From contig CADCUE010000294.1 of the NCBI GenBank assembly GCA_902805805.1, positions 1 to 6,738 of the forward strand: a DNA stretch of 6,738 nt, in the 5' to 3' direction. Made by a program: the position numbers and the translations under genes. The first letter of the stretch is position 1. Every line of letters begins with the position of its first letter. This DNA comes from an uncultured Frankineae bacterium (lineage in GTDB: Bacteria; Actinomycetota; Actinomycetes; Mycobacteriales; SCTD01). This document shows, one piece after another, positions 2-6,738 of the stretch. Below the pieces are notes generated by a model. The model saw only the letters and a program-made list of their open reading frames with translations, was not told where the DNA came from and ran no database searches.

Positions 2-2632
2 AGCCTGGTGTTCACCGCTCTGCGCGCGCCCGGGCCGGTCACGTCGCGCGACCTGCTGGTCGTCCCGCTGGCCCTGCTCACCGTCGCCGCGATCAACGCC
101 GGTGCGGTCCTGCTCGTCCTGACCGTGGTCGGGGTCCGTCCCACGCTGGAGACTGGTCCGCGCAGCCTGCTGCGGGGCGTCGGCGTCGGTGTCGGGGTCA
201 ACCTCCTGCTCGGGCTGCTGTCGGCGGGGCTGTGGACGCAGGCGCCCGAGCTCCGACCGCTCGTCCCGGTCGTGCTGCTGGCGGTGCACCTCGGCACCGG
301 ACTGGTCGCCCAGCAGCTGGCGGGGCAGTCACGGCTCGCCGGGCTGCAGCGTGCCGGCGCGACGCTGGCCGGTCCGGACGAGCTCGGGGTGGCGCTGCCG
401 GTGTTCCTGCAGGAGCTGCGCCGGGCGTTCGAGTGCGCGGGGGTCGAGCTCCGCCTGCGCGGCGACCGGAACGGTCCGCCGCTGCGCGCCGTGTGCGGCT
501 ACGACCCCGGACCGGCCGCCACCGCGCCCCTGGTCGACGAGCTGCTGCGGCGCGGCACAGCAGTCCGGCTCGGTCCGGCCCGCGGCGACCGCGACCTGCA
601 GGCCCTTCGAGCCCAGGCCGGGTGGCGGGACTGCCTCGTCGCGCCCGTGCGCCACCAGGGCGAGGTCGTGGGGCTGCTGGTCACGCACGACCGAGAGGGC
701 TGGGAGGGCTTCGAGCACGGCGAGCTCCCGGTGCTCGAGGCCGCGGCGGGCGTTCTCGGCGAGGCGCTGCACCGCGACGAGCTGGCGCAGGTGCTGGACG
801 CCGAGCGGGCGGCCCTGAGCGCGTCCGAGGTGCGCTGGCGGGCGCTGGCCCGGGTCCTCGAGCTGGTCGCCCGGGGGAGTGCTCTGCACCAGACGCTCGA
901 CCAGCTCGCCCGCACGGTGGAGGAGCAGTCCCCGACCGGCCGGTGCGCGGTGGTCGTGCAGGCGCCCGGTGAGCCTCCGGTCGTCGCCGCCCCGCACCTG
1001 ACCGCGAGCGCTGCTGCAGCAGTGGAGCGGGCGCTGCTGCCGGTCGCCGCCTCGCGAGCAGCCGTCGACGCCCCGTGGGAGCAGGAGGTGGACGACGTCT
1101 CGCCCGCGGCCAGCCGCGAAGCGCTCCGACGGACCGGCGTGAGCCTCCTGCGGGCCTGGCCGCTGCCCTGCACGCCGGGCGGCGGCGCGTCCGGCGTCGT
1201 CGCGCTGTGCTACCCGGACGGTCTGGTCGCGCCCGACGACGACGCCCTGGCCGAGGGCGCCGCCCGCGTCGGCGGGCTCGCGGTCGACCACGTCCTGGTG
1301 CAGCGCCGCCTGGCGCACCAGGCCGACCACGACACCCTCACCGACCTGCCCAACCGCGGCGCCTTCCTGGACCGGCTCAAGCGGGCGCTGCGCAGCACCG
1401 AGCGCAGCGATCGGTGGGTCCTCGTCCTGTTCCTGGACCTGGACCGCTTCAAGGTGGTCAACGACAGCCTCGGCCATCGCGCCGGTGACGAGCTGCTGTG
1501 CGCCGTCGCCGAACGGCTGCGCACCGCCGTGCGTCCGGGCGACACGGTGGCCCGCTTCGGCGGCGACGAGTTCACGATGCTGTGCGAGGACGTCGAGGAC
1601 GAGGCACACGCGCTGCACGTCGTGGAGCGCGTGCGCAAGGCCTTCGAGCGTCCGTTCCCCCTGGGCGACAGCGAGCTGTTCGCGACGACGAGCATCGGCA
1701 TCGCCCTCGGCCGGGGGCGGGCGGAGACACCGGAGACGCTCGTCGAGAACGCGGATGCGGCCATGTACCGCGCCAAGGACAACGGGGGCAACTGCTTCGA
1801 GCTGTTCGACGGCGCCATGCGGGACCGGGCCGTCCTGCGGCTGGCCACCTCCAGCGCGCTGCACCGGGCGGTCGAGCGCGGGGAGTTCCGGGTCGTCTAC
1901 CAGCCGACGGTCCGGCTCGCGACGGGTGAGGTGGAGGGCGTCGAGGCGCTGCTGCGGTGGGAGCGGCCGGACCACGGCACCGTGCCGCCGGGGGACTTCG
2001 TGCCGCTGGCCGAGGAGAACGGCCTGATCGTCCCCATCGGGGCCTTCGTGCTCGAGGCAGCCTGCCAGCAGGCCCGCCGCTGGCAGGACGCCGTGGCGGG
2101 CGGCGTCGCCCCCACCGTCAGCGTCAACCTGTCGGCCCGCCAGCTCGTCGACCCCGGGCTGCTGCCACTCGTGGAGGGGGCGCTGGACCGCAGCGGGGTC
2201 GACCCGACGACCATCTCGCTGGAGATCACCGAGAGCGTCCTGATGGGCGACGTGGCCGCCAGCGGATCGGTGCTGTCCGAGCTCAAGGGCCTCGGGATGC
2301 GCCTGTACGTGGACGACTTCGGCACCGGCTACTCCTCGCTCACCTACCTGCAGCGCTTCCCGGTCGACGGGGTGAAGGTGGACCGGAGCTTCGTCGCCGG
2401 GCTCGGGACGAGCTCGGACGACGACGCGATCGTGCGCGCTGTCATCGGCCTGGCGCACGGGCTCGGGCTGGTCGCCGTCGCCGAGGGCGTCGAGACGCAG
2501 GAGCAGCTCGACCACCTGATCGACCTGCGCTGCGACATCGCGCAGGGCTACCACCTGGGCCGGCCGTCGACGGCCGAGCTCGTCCCGATGGGCCTGCGCA
2601 GCGGCTCGGCGCCGAGCGCCGCCGCCCGCTGA
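2..2632 (+). CDS. Membrane-anchored GAF-GAF-GGDEF-EAL cyclic-di-GMP protein (5'-partial)
   Basis: Probable bifunctional diguanylate cyclase/phosphodiesterase making and degrading c-di-GMP at the inner face of the membrane. The frame is open to the left edge, so the GTG at 8 is probably internal and the N-terminus is missing. Residues are numbered from that GTG. Three hydrophobic segments (about 17-43, 55-76, 84-104) are followed by two GAF-like regions (about 115-255 and 280-430; the second is weaker). The GGDEF domain (about 442-600) has an intact GGDEF at 518-522 and an inhibitory-site RxxD (RPGD, 509-512) exactly five residues before it. The EAL domain (about 616-860) keeps E646-A-L, N707, E739, D769-D770, K790, E826 and Q846, the usual metal-binding and catalytic set, so both domains look active. 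It stops 8 bp from the convergent AOR gene. Signal and ligand are unknown. Family assignment is firm; the net activity is inferred. Confidence 0.95.
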   Translation, partial: SLVFTALRAPGPVTSRDLLVVPLALLTVAAINAGAVLLVLTVVGVRPTLETGPRSLLRGVGVGVGVNLLLGLLSAGLWTQAPELRPLVPVVLLAVHLGTGLVAQQLAGQSRLAGLQRAGATLAGPDELGVALPVFLQELRRAFECAGVELRLRGDRNGPPLRAVCGYDPGPAATAPLVDELLRRGTAVRLGPARGDRDLQALRAQAGWRDCLVAPVRHQGEVVGLLVTHDREGWEGFEHGELPVLEAAAGVLGEALHRDELAQVLDAERAALSASEVRWRALARVLELVARGSALHQTLDQLARTVEEQSPTGRCAVVVQAPGEPPVVAAPHLTASAAAAVERALLPVAASRAAVDAPWEQEVDDVSPAASREALRRTGVSLLRAWPLPCTPGGGASGVVALCYPDGLVAPDDDALAEGAARVGGLAVDHVLVQRRLAHQADHDTLTDLPNRGAFLDRLKRALRSTERSDRWVLVLFLDLDRFKVVNDSLGHRAGDELLCAVAERLRTAVRPGDTVARFGGDEFTMLCEDVEDEAHALHVVERVRKAFERPFPLGDSELFATTSIGIALGRGRAETPETLVENADAAMYRAKDNGGNCFELFDGAMRDRAVLRLATSSALHRAVERGEFRVVYQPTVRLATGEVEGVEALLRWERPDHGTVPPGDFVPLAEENGLIVPIGAFVLEAACQQARRWQDAVAGGVAPTVSVNLSARQLVDPGLLPLVEGALDRSGVDPTTISLEITESVLMGDVAASGSVLSELKGLGMRLYVDDFGTGYSSLTYLQRFPVDGVKVDRSFVAGLGTSSDDDAIVRAVIGLAHGLGLVAVAEGVETQEQLDHLIDLRCDIAQGYHLGRPSTAELVPMGLRSGSAPSAAAR

Positions 2633-2653
2633 GGTCGAGCTCAGGAGCGGGCG
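2623..2653. terminator. Candidate bidirectional hairpin between convergent genes
   Basis: The arms CGCCCGCT (2623-2630) and AGCGGGCG (2646-2653) form a perfect 8-bp stem. GAG (2631-2633) and CTC (2640-2642) can add three pairs beyond a 3-nt bulge. The structure covers the stop codons of both convergent genes, which are only 8 bp apart. There is no U-tract on either side, so classical intrinsic termination is uncertain. In very GC-rich DNA a stem like this can also arise by chance. Confidence 0.4.
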
Positions 2654-4437
2654 CGCCCCGAGGCGTCGAGCCCGCGGGCGGCGTAGTAGCCGTCGATCAT
2701 CGCCCGCAGCCGAGCGGGGCTGAGCGCCGCGGTACGACCGGAGCCGACGGTGAGCTCCTCGGACAGGAAGCGCTCGGGCAGCCAGTCGTCCTCCGGCTGC
2801 CACCCCTCGCGCAGGTTGTAGGCCCGCTTGGCCAGGACGATCCGCGCCGCCGTCGCCCTGAGCTCGTCGGCCGTGAGGTCCCAGCCGGTGACCAGGCGCA
2901 GCAGGACGGCCCACTCCTCGAACGGCTCCTCGAAGACGCCGCGCAGGAACTTGCACAGGATCATCGAGTCCATGACCGCGGAGCGGTCCTCGGCCTCGAT
3001 CGCCCCGCGCACGTGCGCCTCGCCACCCGCCAGCCGGTCCACGTCGCCGGACAGGTCCGACTCGTACGCACCGCTGCGGTTGTGGTCGGCGCCGCGGGCG
3101 TTGACGGCCATCCCGAGCGCCATCGACTGCATGGTCCGCGGCTCGTAGCCAGGCAGCTCCAGCCCCTTGACGTGCGCGGCGAAGGCCTCGGAGCCCTGCC
3201 CGACGACGGCGGACGCGGCCCGTGAGCCCAGGGCGAGCAGCGGGCCCAGACCCTCGCCGGAACCGATCTCGCGCAGCGCGCGCAGGACCGCCTGCCCGTC
3301 ACCGAAGCGCAGCCACGGCGCGTCCAGCAGCCCGCGCTCGGCGCACTCCATGGCCCAGGCGATCGTGCCGCCGGCGGAGATCGTGTCGATGCCGAGGTCG
3401 TCGCACAGCGCGCTGGCGGCGACCACGGCGTCGGGGTCCGAGACCCCGCACATCGGCCCGAGCGAGGACACGTTCTGGTACTCCATGCGGACCTTGCGGC
3501 CGCTGCCGTCCTTGTTCTTCGGGCCCTTGTAGAGGTGCTCGCAGCCGATGGCGCACGACGCGCAGGAGCTCTTGACGACCTCGCGGGACTGCGCCAGCTC
3601 CTCGACCGCCAGTGACGACGCCCCCTCGAACACCGCGGCGGAGAAGTTGCGCGTCGGGAGCGTCGACAGGGCGTTGAAGGCCAGGACGTTGGCCATGGTG
3701 CCCAGCTCGCGGTACTTCGCCGTCGCCCGTCCGCGCGACCGGTCGCGCAGGTCCTTGGCTGCGGCGAGCACGCCGGCCGGATCGGCCGGCGCGACCTTGG
3801 TGGTGGCGTGGACCGCCAGCGCCTTGACGTTCTTGGCGCCCATCACGGCGCCGAGCCCGCCGCGCCCGGCGTGGCGTCCGTCGTGCGACAAGGTGGCGTA
3901 GCGGACACCGCGCTCGCCGGCGGTGCCGATGGAGGCGACCTGCCAGCCGGCGCCGAGCCGTGCCCGGACGGCCGTCTCGGCCTCCGCCGCGGTCTGCCCC
4001 CACTCGGCACTGGCGTCGCCCAGGACGACCCGGTCGCCCTCGATGCTCACGAACGACGGCCCGGCCGCCCGGCCGACGAGCACGAGGGCGTCGTGACCGG
4101 TGAGCTTGCCGCTGATCGCGAAGTGGCTCGACGCCAGCGCGTCGGTCAGCAGCCCGGTCAGGGGCGACTTGGCCACGACGGCGAACTTGGCGCTGGTCGT
4201 CAGGGGCGTGCCGACGAGGGGGGAGAACACGAAGACCAGCGGCGCCTCGGAGGCCAGCGGGTCGACGCCGGCCGGTACGAGCGAGGACAGCAGCCAGGTG
4301 CCGAGGCCGACGCCGCCGAGGTGGTCGCGCAGCACCTGCTCCGGCAGGGGCAGCACGCGGCTGGAGCCGTCGGTCACGTCGATGACGAGGGCCCGGCCGA
4401 AGTAGCCCCCGGGGACGCTGTCGGGCGGGCTAGCCAC
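2641..4437 (-). CDS. Aldehyde:ferredoxin oxidoreductase family protein (tungsten/molybdenum pterin enzyme)
   Basis: A 598-aa protein close to the usual AOR length (about 600-630), with no signal peptide, so presumably cytoplasmic. Known family members oxidise aldehydes to carboxylic acids, passing electrons through a [4Fe-4S] cluster to ferredoxin or another acceptor. Seen here: an N-terminal GGYFGRALVIDV typical of AOR starts; a pterin-binding segment around 188-203 (GRGGLGAVMGAKNVK); cluster ligands C292-x2-C295-x3-C299 plus C495 in ILCKFLRG, matching the CxxCxxxC...C layout of Pyrococcus AOR; MEYQNVSSLGP at 318-328, where the catalytic-region glutamate lies (E319); GADHNR with H452; and a C-terminal YNLREG at 540-545. 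The GTG start overlaps the last codons of the MobA-MoaD gene by 8 nt and has no clear Shine-Dalgarno, suggesting translational coupling. Metal (W or Mo), substrate and electron acceptor cannot be read from the sequence, and no ferredoxin gene lies in the window. Confidence 0.93.
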   Translation of the reverse strand: MASPPDSVPGGYFGRALVIDVTDGSSRVLPLPEQVLRDHLGGVGLGTWLLSSLVPAGVDPLASEAPLVFVFSPLVGTPLTTSAKFAVVAKSPLTGLLTDALASSHFAISGKLTGHDALVLVGRAAGPSFVSIEGDRVVLGDASAEWGQTAAEAETAVRARLGAGWQVASIGTAGERGVRYATLSHDGRHAGRGGLGAVMGAKNVKALAVHATTKVAPADPAGVLAAAKDLRDRSRGRATAKYRELGTMANVLAFNALSTLPTRNFSAAVFEGASSLAVEELAQSREVVKSSCASCAIGCEHLYKGPKNKDGSGRKVRMEYQNVSSLGPMCGVSDPDAVVAASALCDDLGIDTISAGGTIAWAMECAERGLLDAPWLRFGDGQAVLRALREIGSGEGLGPLLALGSRAASAVVGQGSEAFAAHVKGLELPGYEPRTMQSMALGMAVNARGADHNRSGAYESDLSGDVDRLAGGEAHVRGAIEAEDRSAVMDSMILCKFLRGVFEEPFEEWAVLLRLVTGWDLTADELRATAARIVLAKRAYNLREGWQPEDDWLPERFLSEELTVGSGRTAALSPARLRAMIDGYYAARGLDASGRARS

Positions 4438-5272
4438 CGGCGTCGGCCGACAGGAAGGCGACCAGATCGGCGGAGGCGAGCGGGAGCTCCGGGTCGCGCA
4501 CCATCTGGTCGCCGTTGACGGCGGCCAGGACGTGCCGGTCGAGCACGAGGCCGACGGCCTGCGCCGCCGCGGCGAGCGTGGCGGCGCGGACCGCCTGCTC
4601 GCCGCGCTCGCCCCCGGACGCCAGGACGCCGTAGCGCTGCACGACGACCTCCGGGGCCGGCAGGGCGCGCAGGGCGGCGTACTGCTCCGGGGTGTTGACG
4701 CCGGTCACCGAGCTCAGCGCCGGGTCGACCTTGGCGAGGGCCGGATCGGCCAGCAGGGCCAGGTCGTCGAGCGTCCGGACGTCGGCGCCCTCGAGCAGGA
4801 AGGCCGGTCGGGGGCGTCCCTCGGCGAGCAGCGCCCGTGCCCGGTCGGCCAGCCCGGTGCGGTAGCAGGCGGCCAGCGGCTGCCGGTGCCCCTGGACCAC
4901 CGGAAGCGCCACGTCGGCGTCCTGCCCGGCGCGCACGACCGCCCGTACGAACGCCGGGTGCAGCAGCGGCAGGTCGGTCGAGCAGACGAAGGCGTGCGAG
5001 GCGCGGTCCTGCAGCGCGCCGAGGCCGGTGGCCATGCCCTGCAGGGGGCCTCGCGCGACGCTGTCGTCCTCGAGCACCTCCACCGCGCCCGGCAGCGACG
5101 GCAGGTCCTGGCCCGCGGCCCGGACGACGACGACCGGTCCGTCGACCCCGCGCTGCACCAGGCCGACGACGCGGCGCAGCAGCGTCGAGCCGTGCCACTC
5201 GAGGCCCGCCTTGGGCTGGCCCATCCGCGACGACCGGCCCCCGGCCAGCACGATCGCGGCGGTCGCGGACAC
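4430..5272 (-). CDS. MobA-like NTP transferase fused to a C-terminal MoaD-like sulfur carrier
   Basis: A 280-aa protein of two parts. Residues 1-202 form a MobA-type nucleotidyltransferase: LAGGRSSRMGQPK at 9-21 (nucleotide-binding loop, K21), STDLPLL at 98-104 (metal-binding D100) and VNTPEQYAAL near 192-201. MobA adds GMP to molybdopterin. Residues 207-280 look like MoaD, the small sulfur carrier of molybdopterin synthase: LAAVNGDQMV (249-258), PLASADLVAFL (264-274) and a terminal Gly-Gly (279-280), as in MoaD proteins that are adenylated and thiocarboxylated at that tail. A MobA alone is about 190-200 aa, so the extra 75-80 residues are a real added domain. The in-frame stop of the DUF2277 gene lies three codons upstream, fixing GTG 5272 as the earliest start; a GGAG sits only 2 nt before it. 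The MobA half could prefer another nucleotide or cofactor, and the tail could be ThiS-like rather than MoaD. Its place beside AOR favours a pterin-cofactor role. Confidence 0.88.
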   Translation of the reverse strand: MSATAAIVLAGGRSSRMGQPKAGLEWHGSTLLRRVVGLVQRGVDGPVVVVRAAGQDLPSLPGAVEVLEDDSVARGPLQGMATGLGALQDRASHAFVCSTDLPLLHPAFVRAVVRAGQDADVALPVVQGHRQPLAACYRTGLADRARALLAEGRPRPAFLLEGADVRTLDDLALLADPALAKVDPALSSVTGVNTPEQYAALRALPAPEVVVQRYGVLASGGERGEQAVRAATLAAAAQAVGLVLDRHVLAAVNGDQMVRDPELPLASADLVAFLSADAGG

Positions 5273-5281
5273 GGCTCCAGC

Positions 5282-5518
5282 CTACGTCCGGGTGGCCGAC
5301 GACGCGGGGCGCGCGCCCCGGACGACCAGGTCGCGCAGCAGCGACTCGGTGGCGGCGGTGACGGCGTCGACCGCGCCGTCGAAGGCGTCGCGGTTGTGGG
5401 CGGCGGGGGAGCGCATCCCCGAGATCTTGCGGACGTACTGCAGCGCGGCGGCCCGCACGTCGTCGGCCGTGACGTCGTCGGCGTAGGGCGGGCGCAGGGT
5501 CTGGATGCTCCGGCACAT
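5282..5518 (-). CDS. DUF2277 family small protein
   Basis: A 78-aa protein beginning MCRSIQTLRPP and containing VRAAALQYVRKISGM (21-35), the hallmarks of the DUF2277 family, whose function is unknown. The rest is a predicted helix (about 43-67) with a basic, Ala/Arg-rich tail. There is no signal peptide or membrane segment. The frame extends upstream to 5635, but the family consistently starts at MCR-x-I, so ATG 5518 is chosen. No Shine-Dalgarno precedes it; a TACGGT box ends 6 nt before the ATG, which fits a leaderless mRNA. It is the first gene of the unit, 9 nt ahead of and in the same frame as the MobA-MoaD fusion, suggesting co-transcription with the cofactor and AOR genes. A role in that pathway is inferred only from position. 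Confidence 0.87.
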   Translation of the reverse strand: MCRSIQTLRPPYADDVTADDVRAAALQYVRKISGMRSPAAHNRDAFDGAVDAVTAATESLLRDLVVRGARPASSATRT

Positions 5519-5600: not shown

Positions 5601-6383
5601 GTGCTCGACCTGACCGGCACCTCGTCCCTCGTCACCGGCGGGGCCAGCGGCCTCGGCGAGGCGACCGTCCGGGCGCTCGCCGCGCGCGGCGCCTCCGTGG
5701 TCGTCGTCGACCTGCAGGACGACCGGGGGCAGGCGGTCGCGTCGAGCGTGCAGGGCGGCTACGTCCGGGCCGACGTCACCGACGCCGAGCAGGTCACCGC
5801 CGCGGTGCGCGCCGCGCAGGAGCACGGGCCGCTGCGCACGCTGGTCTGCGCGGCGGGCATCGGCTGGGCCAGCCGCACCGTCGGCCGCGACAGCACGTTC
5901 GAGTCGGCGCACGACCTCGCGGCCTTCCGCAAGGTCATCGACGTCAACCTCGTGGGGACGTTCAACTGCATCCGGCTGGCCGCCACCGCCATGGGCCAGC
6001 AGGAGCCGGTCGACGCCGACGGCGCCCGCGGCTCGATCGTCACGCTCGCGTCCATCGCGGCGTTCGACGGTCAGATCGGACAGGCGGCCTACTCGGCGAG
6101 CAAGGGCGGCATCGTCGGCATGACGCTGCCGGTCGCCCGTGACCTCGCCGCCGTCGGGGTGCGGCTCAACTGCGTGGCACCCGGGCTGTTCGACACGCCG
6201 ATCTACGGCGAGGGGGAGGCGGCCGAGGCGTTCAAGGACAAGCTCAAGCGCGACGTGCTGTTCCCCAAGCGGCTGGGGCAGGCTGACGAGCTCGCCTCCA
6301 TGGTCGTGGAGCTGCTGGTCAACCCGTACGCCAACGGCGAGGTCGTGCGGGTCGACGGCGGCGCCCGGCTGCAGCCGAAGTAG
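5601..6383 (+). CDS. Short-chain dehydrogenase, type-2 3-hydroxyacyl-CoA dehydrogenase (HSD17B10-like)
   Basis: A 260-aa classical short-chain dehydrogenase/reductase, probably cytoplasmic and NAD-dependent. Motifs: TGGASGLG at 12-19 (cofactor loop), D37 after the second strand (NAD preference), DV at 58-59, CAAG at 83-86 in place of NNAG, N116 in DVNLVGTFN, S151, and Y164-x3-K168 (YSASK). The stretch QAAYSASKGGIVGMTLP and the tail APGLFDTP...NGEVVRVDGGARLQP closely resemble human HSD17B10 as remembered. That protein oxidises short-chain 3-hydroxyacyl-CoA and 2-methyl-3-hydroxybutyryl-CoA in isoleucine breakdown. Bacterial relatives are usually annotated as 3-hydroxyacyl-CoA dehydrogenases, but the substrate here is inferred. 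GTG 5601 is chosen because of AGGAGG at 5591. It is divergent from the AOR operon across an 82-bp region and convergent with the DUF5999 gene. Confidence 0.92.
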   Translation: MLDLTGTSSLVTGGASGLGEATVRALAARGASVVVVDLQDDRGQAVASSVQGGYVRADVTDAEQVTAAVRAAQEHGPLRTLVCAAGIGWASRTVGRDSTFESAHDLAAFRKVIDVNLVGTFNCIRLAATAMGQQEPVDADGARGSIVTLASIAAFDGQIGQAAYSASKGGIVGMTLPVARDLAAVGVRLNCVAPGLFDTPIYGEGEAAEAFKDKLKRDVLFPKRLGQADELASMVVELLVNPYANGEVVRVDGGARLQPK

Positions 6384-6398
6384 GCCGCGCGGGCGGCT
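6383..6398. terminator. Small GC hairpin between convergent genes
   Basis: GCCGC (6384-6388) and GCGGC (6393-6397) form a 5-bp stem with a 4-nt loop and a possible closing G-U pair, filling the 14-bp gap between the two convergent stop codons. The stem is short and lacks a U-tract, so it is a weak terminator candidate. Confidence 0.25.
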
Positions 6399-6574
6399 CA
6401 GGCGGCCACCGGGGTGGGCGCCGGCGGCGTCCGCAGCAGGCCGTCGCCCTCGAGCAAGACGGCTCCGTTGCAGAGCAGCGCGTAGCCGCAGTCCTGCAGG
6501 TGCTCGGCGACGATGCGCGCCGCGGCTGCGTCAGGAGCCGAGGCGGAGGGGCAGGTCGGAGTGTGCGGGCACAT
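6398..6574 (-). CDS. DUF5999 family small Cys-rich protein
   Basis: A 58-aa protein starting MCPHTPTCPSASAPD and containing YALLCNGAVLLEGDG (31-45). This matches the DUF5999 family of actinobacteria, whose members begin MC-x-H-x3-C-P and carry a conserved LLCNG. The function is unknown. C2, H4, C8 and C35 could form a small metal site, which is inference only; C29 appears to be an extra cysteine. The frame runs back to 6730, but the Ala/Arg-rich upstream extension is not family-like, so ATG 6574 is chosen. The Shine-Dalgarno is poor (GGATCC shortly upstream). The gene looks monocistronic, and the 164 bp upstream are free of coding sequence. Confidence 0.85.
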   Translation of the reverse strand: MCPHTPTCPSASAPDAAAARIVAEHLQDCGYALLCNGAVLLEGDGLLRTPPAPTPVAA

Positions 6575-6629
6575 GGCGGATCCGATCGGGGTGGAGCGCC
6601 GGTCGTCGGGGCCGGCTGTCGTCGTGGTC

Positions 6630-6658
6630 TCTACAACGATGGAAAGCCAGCGTGTCTT
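6630..6658 (-). promoter_or_regulatory. Weak candidate promoter for the DUF5999 gene
   Basis: On the minus strand AAGACA (6658-6653) and TGTAGA (6635-6630) are separated by 17 nt and lie in a locally AT-richer patch unusual for this window. They would give a leader of roughly 50 nt. Both hexamers are partial matches, so the promoter position is approximate. Confidence 0.3.
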
Positions 6659-6714
6659 CCGTGCGGACGCCGGCCGTGCCGCGGCCCCGGCGCGCGCGGC
6701 GGCGGCTCCCTCCG

Positions 6715-6720
6715 TAGGAT
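6715..6720 (+). promoter_or_regulatory. Possible rightward -10 box at the window edge
   Basis: TAGGAT fits TANNNT and lies in a non-coding stretch pointing to the right edge, so it could serve a gene starting beyond 6738. No -35 hexamer is seen, and the downstream gene is not visible. Confidence 0.25.
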
Positions 6721-6738
6721 CGGTGTCCACGGTCGGCC

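Follow-up and report, generated by a model that had tools for sequence, protein, structure and literature searches.

A MobA-type enzyme domain fused to a WorX-like MoaD/ThiS-type carrier domain, encoded directly upstream of an AOR gene in Actinomycetota

WorX, described by Putumbaka et al. 2026 (PMC13328260), is a small ThiS-like protein encoded beside the large subunit of WOR; its authors predict that it serves pterin cofactor synthesis and call its exact function unknown. AOR-linked MoaD genes and a MoaD–AOR fusion in Azoarcus were reported by Iyer et al. 2006 (PMC1779556), tying the MoaD type to the tungsten-type AOR, and in Aromatoleum the MoaD-type proteins AorD and AorE are encoded in the AOR gene neighbourhood (PMC6365974). 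TK1065 of Thermococcus kodakarensis is a MoaD-family protein also encoded beside AOR; the same paper reports functional redundancy among three carriers of this organism, which serve both as sulfur carriers and as protein modifiers (PMC11323500). The locus described here, from an uncultured Frankineae bacterium, has a carrier in the corresponding place: in the window (the whole 6,738-nucleotide stretch that was analysed), a gene joining a MobA-type domain to a C-terminal MoaD/ThiS-type domain lies directly upstream of an AOR gene (Table 1).

Table 1. Positions of the fusion gene, its domains and the neighbouring AOR gene in the window
Feature	Position	Strand	Details and basis
MobA–MoaD (WorX-like) fusion gene	4430..5272	-	280 aa, GTG start; single intact frame and homologues
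MobA-type guanylyltransferase domain	4667..5272	-	residues 1–202; Pfam, fold, invariant motif residues
NTP_transf_3 match	4808–5257	-	residues 6–155 of the fusion; Pfam
MoaD/ThiS-type beta-grasp domain	4433..4663	-	residues 204–280; fold and weak profile matches
C-terminal Gly279-Gly280 of the fusion	4433..4438	-	invariant in 69/69 aligned; 167/167 among homologues listed
AOR (WOR family large subunit)	2641..4437	-	598 aa; AFOR_N and AFOR_C; 8 bp overlap with the fusion

The translated fusion ends in FLSADAGG, and its stop codon (4432–4430) lies within the overlap that begins at the AOR start (4437). A search for homologues returned 6369 proteins at E ≤ 0.001 out of 8000 scored, and the best 120 of these covered 94–100% of the query, each being a fusion. 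Together with the fusions found in the genomes of three surveys (see below), this rules out an assembly or sequencing error that joined two genes, the objection that the initial annotation had itself raised. Among the homologues listed, which are the closest ones and whose second list was chosen by likeness to the C-terminal domain itself, 167 of 167 end in GG, and 166 of them are at least 257 aa long. Since 119 of 6263 ORFs of at least 55 aa (1.9%) end in GG across all loci examined, this terminus reflects more than chance. Where the homologues carry database names, these refer to MobA or to an NTP transferase domain alone, which hides the carrier.

PF12804 (MobA-like NTP transferase) matched the fusion with 107.5 bits against a cut-off of 27. 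The NCBIfam cut-off for the MobA equivalog was missed (best model, 102.2 of 205 bits), and we therefore call the N-terminal half MobA-type and not a certified MobA equivalog. In its predicted fold, MobA structures rank first by Foldseek and are tied with GlmU/IspD by VIA-align, and a profile search aligns it to E. coli MobA as far as E. coli residue 166. The signature LAGG in this enzyme class marks GTP enzymes, while LAAG marks CTP enzymes; the MobA half carries the GTP-type motifs LAGG...RMG..K, GPL.G and D.P. In an alignment of 69 fusions drawn from the GG-ending lists, M17, G18, K21, D69, G75, P76, D100, P102 and N193 are invariant in all 69, and G11, G12 and R16 show no substitution in any of the 59 rows extending that far. 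With motif residues this constant, a MobA half reduced to a dead scaffold is disfavoured on sequence, and both halves of the fusion are probably functional.

Since a fold search with the whole protein was swamped by the MobA half, the C-terminal half was folded separately. The predicted structure has a beta-grasp fold of the MoaD/ThiS kind, equally close to SAMP1 and to MoaD, and carries a free C-terminal Gly-Gly. Sequence profiles are less decisive: Pfam ThiS scored the cut-out domain at 15.9 bits (E 0.02), below the gathering threshold of 22.5, and gave 24.5 bits for one and 16.8 for the other of two separate relatives. Weak profile matches to E. coli MoaD (1fm0_D; E 0.23 and 0.13) extend to the C-terminus, with an unrelated dehydrogenase outranking 1fm0_D in both searches. 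A sequence search for free-standing relatives of the domain gave 20 matches that were mostly fusion fragments on inspection, and the separate carriers discussed below were instead identified from AOR neighbourhoods. The initial annotation had proposed a MobA-type and a MoaD-like domain in one frame, with an intact and accessible Gly-Gly tail, next to an AOR gene. This description holds, the first half being recognised by profile and the second by its predicted fold.

The neighbouring gene product belongs to the AOR/WOR family by its AFOR_N (198 bits) and AFOR_C (344 bits) domains, and its nearest solved relative is P. furiosus AOR (1aor, E 4.3e-91). Conserved active-site residues of the family are Thr243, Glu313, Tyr427 and His448 in P. 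furiosus numbering (PMC13328260). Enzymes of the AOR family hold two MPT without nucleotides (PMC6365974) and thus take bis-MPT (PMC6365974, PMC9103625); the E. coli member YdhV takes up no bis-MGD (PMC9103625), and the MPT phosphates are Mg2+-bridged in all known AOR structures (PMC12096430). By analogy, the cofactor of the window AOR would be nucleotide-free bis-MPT, with W probably as the metal. MobA first makes bis-Mo-MPT and then adds GMP to give bis-MGD (PMC9103625, PMC6650914), the form taken by formate dehydrogenase (PMC13197769). Since the AOR family uses nucleotide-free MPT and YdhV rejects bis-MGD, the final product of MobA should not be the AOR cofactor. Synthesis of an MGD cofactor for AOR by the MobA half is disfavoured on the same grounds, as well as by the Mg2+-bridged phosphates.

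To place the fusion in its genomic context, three draws of Actinomycetota genomes were centred on G001, a Frankineae MAG that is the closest genome, at about 85% identity: 200 genomes at the level of the order, 396 of the phylum and 394 of the class, searched at E ≤ 1e-20, 1e-30 and 1e-40, respectively. In the same order, 21, 13 and 19 genomes gave a match. Scoring in each genome was confined to its top 6 or 12 candidates, and the draws may overlap. Nine of the 21 order matches (G188, G045, G150, G196, G125, G104, G076, G054 and G090), which align at 36–45% identity over the MobA part alone, were treated as lying outside the clade and do not enter the AOR counts. G098 and G874, in which the gene runs off the contig before its tail, were left out; in neither genome did an AFOR_C search match an AOR. 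Also left out of the counts was a degenerate-tailed copy on an R. opacus plasmid, for which the search did not extend to the chromosome. The frameshifted copy of G035 was counted as tail-less and omitted from the later of the two MobA trees described below.

Twenty fusions end in GG, from 18 survey genomes (G001 counted once), a Nonomuraea record and the window. All 20 lie directly upstream of an AOR (window; G001, G084, G037, G112, G025, G077; Nonomuraea; G242, G463, G559, G566, G390; G638, G809, G677, G844, G625, G623, G652), the AOR of G112 being cut by the contig end. The tail is degenerate in 12 relatives (G024, G006, G035, G297, G817, G701, G664, G687, G651, G591, G610, G639) and missing in 10 (G133, G189, G528, G430, G337, G276, G562, G403, G661, G587), and an adjacent AOR was found in none of these 22, with several of the fetched flanks limited by contig ends. 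In 19 of the 22 genomes (completeness unstated) there was no AFOR_C match at all, and the MobA half persists in these 19. The other three (G591, G610 and G639) encode an AOR away from the MobA gene. Here the copy attached to MobA has NVGV or NVPR at its terminus, and a frame ending in SADAGG, 55–62% identical to the C-terminal domain of the fusion, lies directly upstream of the AOR. A carrier is thus directly upstream of AOR in 23 of 23 actinobacterial AOR loci examined. The retention of GG only beside AOR (20/20 versus 0/22), together with a SADAGG-type carrier beside the AOR in the three exceptions, indicates that the carrier belongs to AOR, like WorX; the GG tail seems to serve the adjacent AOR, and the enzyme half other clients as well.

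A Fisher test on these counts (20/0 versus 0/22; p 2e-12) ignores kinship and is not counted as evidence. On a MobA tree, with AOR coded according to whether it adjoins the MobA gene and the near-identical G591 and G610 counted as one lineage, the GG state changes at least five times. The well-supported independent pairs number three; each of them agrees with AOR adjacency, but they are too few for significance (sign test p 0.25). An earlier, smaller tree, coded in the same way, gave four changes and two supported pairs.

The three exceptional loci also bear on the order of events. In G591 the SADAGG carrier has its own gene, 78 aa long and preceded by a stop codon, and in G610 its frame is open for 298 codons with no MobA within, so that both are unfused; in G639 the contig ends at the carrier start and the carrier may be fused there. 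In an AOR tree built by a quick method, the AORs of all three nest in the fusion-bearing clade, and the split is therefore probably secondary, the fusion having come first and a separate carrier having relieved it later. Since the carriers of G591 and G610 stand beside AOR unfused from MobA, AOR does not depend on the fusion. In a Planctomycetota genome (G002, locus L044), MoaD(...VGG), AOR and MobA are consecutive separate genes; the carrier is a 98-aa ThiS-family protein with a GG terminus, and the MobA is 47% identical to that of the window across the MobA part.

Candidate clients of the MobA half are encoded nearby. An FdhA-like gene follows within about 200 bp of AOR in 13 of 22 AOR loci, the window not counted (G242, G463, G559, G566, G390, Nonomuraea, G809, G638, G677, G844, G625, G652, G639); wherever the contig continues, a NuoEF-like gene and MoeA come next. 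Nonomuraea gerenzanensis is a culturable example of the order fusion–AOR–FdhA–FdhB–MoeA. The Nonomuraea FdhA scores above the cut-off of the formate dehydrogenase alpha model (773.9 versus 666.25 bits), and the other copies were matched to it by tblastn only. FdhA lies about 3.6 kb downstream of AOR in G591 and G610 and was not found in the 19 kb of the G623 locus; the contigs of G084 and G112 are too short to show the genes after AOR. In part of the window's group (G037, G077), SelD directly follows AOR and SelA is close by; the fusion's contig in G001, G037 and G025 also encodes a formate dehydrogenase whose frame contains a TGA. Among the 22 GG-less copies, only 7 (G133, G006, G035, G661, G528, G562, G403) have Fdh or Sel genes at a distance of up to about 10 kb, a raw count without a control rate.

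No second MobA-type copy was found in six fusion genomes of the order survey (completeness unstated; matches beyond the best other PF12804 protein were read in G001 only). In all six (G001, G084, G037, G025, G112, G077) that best other protein is of the LAAG type and MocA-like. The G001 protein is MocA/NboR-like, below the NCBIfam cut-offs, and on inspection lies behind an XdhC-like frame; the further PF12804 proteins of G001 are one GlmU-like by motif and two weaker ones. A search of 13 genomes for MoaE gave a single copy in 12 and none in G098. Other ThiS-family genes are present in 13 of 13, with three or more each in six fusion genomes. Those of G001 are MoaD-, ThiS- and CysO-like on inspection. 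The window itself holds no E1, MoeB or MoaE gene, and no JAMM gene was found among its genes.

The reading that we favour, to which we give a slightly better than even chance, is that a WorX-type carrier dedicated to AOR has been fused to the cell's MobA, whose product would go to formate dehydrogenase. As family knowledge suggests, a MoeB-type enzyme would adenylate and thiocarboxylate the GG tail, which, acting with the MoaE of the same genome, would form the molybdopterin dithiolene for the bis-MPT (probably W) cofactor of AOR. The MobA half, whose E. coli counterpart forms bis-MPT before adding GMP, would make bis-MGD for formate dehydrogenase and other enzymes of the DMSO-reductase family, and may also feed AOR with the bis-MPT intermediate, so that the division of clients is not clean. 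The fusion would then give co-production, and perhaps local supply, for clients with different cofactor forms, with no obligatory channel into AOR. AOR could also use the other ThiS-family proteins encoded in fusion genomes.

Alternatively, the fusion may be one of convenience, in which neighbouring cofactor genes merged and co-expression is the sole gain, with no physical or regulatory coupling. The separate genes of the Planctomycetota order, the intact separate carrier left by the secondary split and the existence of MobA-only relatives all fit this account; however, 20 AOR-bearing loci across order-, class- and phylum-wide draws retain the fusion, which hints at, without proving, some value, and we consider mere convenience doubtful.

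The initial annotation had gone further, suggesting that one protein couples dithiolene formation to later cofactor processing for the adjacent AOR. In such a series the tail would contribute to MPT, the MobA half would assemble bis-MPT and AOR would take it before GMP addition; less likely still, this clade of AOR would use MGD, against which the behaviour of YdhV and the bridged phosphates speak. The idea gains from the fact that bis-Mo-MPT precedes GMP addition in MobA and is the form that AOR-type enzymes need, as well as from the strict adjacency of fusion and AOR and the presence of MobA near AOR in Planctomycetota too. These points are offset by the MobA half kept in 19 genomes without an AOR match, by the carrier separate from MobA in G591 and G610, and by a GMP-bearing final product unsuited to AOR. 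The suggestion is thus supported in part: the tail tracks AOR, but the enzyme half persists without it and AOR occurs with unfused carriers. In view of MobA's bis-MPT step, we have raised the series from very improbable to unlikely and slightly lowered our estimate for the dedicated carrier fused to MobA. The point still in favour of the earlier suggestion is MobA's bis-MPT step. A bis-MGD client, FdhA-like, directly follows AOR in 13 of 22 loci.

A more speculative proposal, which we regard as quite unlikely, is that the fusion is a switch at the bis-MPT branch point, the sulfur load of the tail or the docking of MoaE deciding whether MobA stops at bis-MPT or adds GMP; one protein would then split a single metal-pterin pool between AOR and formate dehydrogenase, often encoded side by side. 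It is highly improbable that the GG domain is instead a SAMP/Urm1-like modifier of AOR or another protein, or a docking handle, with no part in molybdopterin synthesis: its fold is as near SAMP1 as MoaD and the T. kodakarensis carriers double as modifiers (PMC11323500), but E1 and JAMM are absent among the window genes, and position and family fit WorX or MoaD beside AOR.

For the dedicated carrier fused to MobA, the genomes examined amount to a natural experiment, with GG only beside AOR, a decayed or missing tail where no AOR was found, and a separate intact carrier where AOR lies elsewhere, so that the idea of a sulfur carrier reserved for AOR can be tested directly. It also raises the question of how one cell shares out its metal-pterin pool among enzymes that need bis-MPT and those that need bis-MGD.

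We found no description of a MobA–MoaD fusion in the open-licence PMC literature, and the available sections of a survey of molybdoprotein fusions (PMC6147048) show no MobA with MoaD; with at least 120 homologues, the fusion does occur in databases, as initially surmised. E. coli MobA (1e5k, 1fr9, 1h4d) resembles the N-terminal half in fold and motif residues and aligns structurally at 22–25% identity, but lacks a C-terminal carrier. MoaD of molybdopterin synthase (1fm0_D, 1nvi_D, 6jbz) shares the beta-grasp fold of the tail, and E. coli MoaD also its C-terminal GG, whereas the carrier here is fused to MobA and its sequence falls under the family cut-offs. Among the AOR-associated carriers, WorX stands alone and TK1065 is unfused, and in the Azoarcus and Aromatoleum systems the fusion partner is AOR or none, in contrast to the carrier described here, which is the C-terminal domain of MobA; the word 'MobA' does not occur in the main text of PMC13328260, PMC1779556 or PMC6365974. 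A ThiS-like WorX beside WORs and a MoaD beside or fused to AOR were thus known already, and what is apparently new is the carrier fused to MobA.

Part of the MobA–MoaD fusion family is set in a selenocysteine/formate dehydrogenase neighbourhood; in four relatives of the window, SelD lies directly 3' of the AOR gene or close to the MobA gene. The place of the window's GAF-GGDEF-EAL gene is taken by SelD or formate dehydrogenase genes in some relatives. A profile model test showed that the MFS transporter of two of the four SelD loci passes the L-lactate transporter model NF049980.

Locations of neighbouring genes (L, relatives' loci)
Feature	Coordinates	Strand	Remark
GAF-GGDEF-EAL protein	window 8-2632	+	faces AOR gene
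DUF2277 gene	window 5282-5518	-	9 bp upstream of fusion
Short-chain dehydrogenase	window 5601-6383	+	near fusion
DUF5999 protein	window 6398-6730	-	
SelD gene	L030:6783-7775; L033:11408-12388; L046:7991-8926; L036:3273-3719		relatives of window
MFS transporter	L030:4161-5453; L033:14013-15422		close to AOR cluster
AOR, formate-dehydrogenase-like genes directly downstream	L027:8906-16705		12 similar loci besides
MobA, degenerate tail	L028:7923-8873		Rhodococcus opacus megaplasmid

On the upstream side of the fusion, the DUF2277 gene is shared with the nearest genome, G001 (L001:3012-3239), and is absent from all 23 other loci checked. The short-chain dehydrogenase is 77–90% identical to copies in eight other loci, where it lies on the strand opposite to the MobA gene and within ~3 kb of it; two of these, in G133 (tail-less MobA relative) and G098 (gene running off the contig), have no AOR match.

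On the Rhodococcus megaplasmid, the degenerate-tail MobA gene is surrounded by integrases, with a MoeA-like (glp) gene ~8 kb away.

In L027-type loci, MoeA also follows the formate-dehydrogenase-like genes wherever the contig extends far enough. Their order after AOR possibly reflects a two-step route from an aldehyde (formaldehyde?) through formate to CO2.
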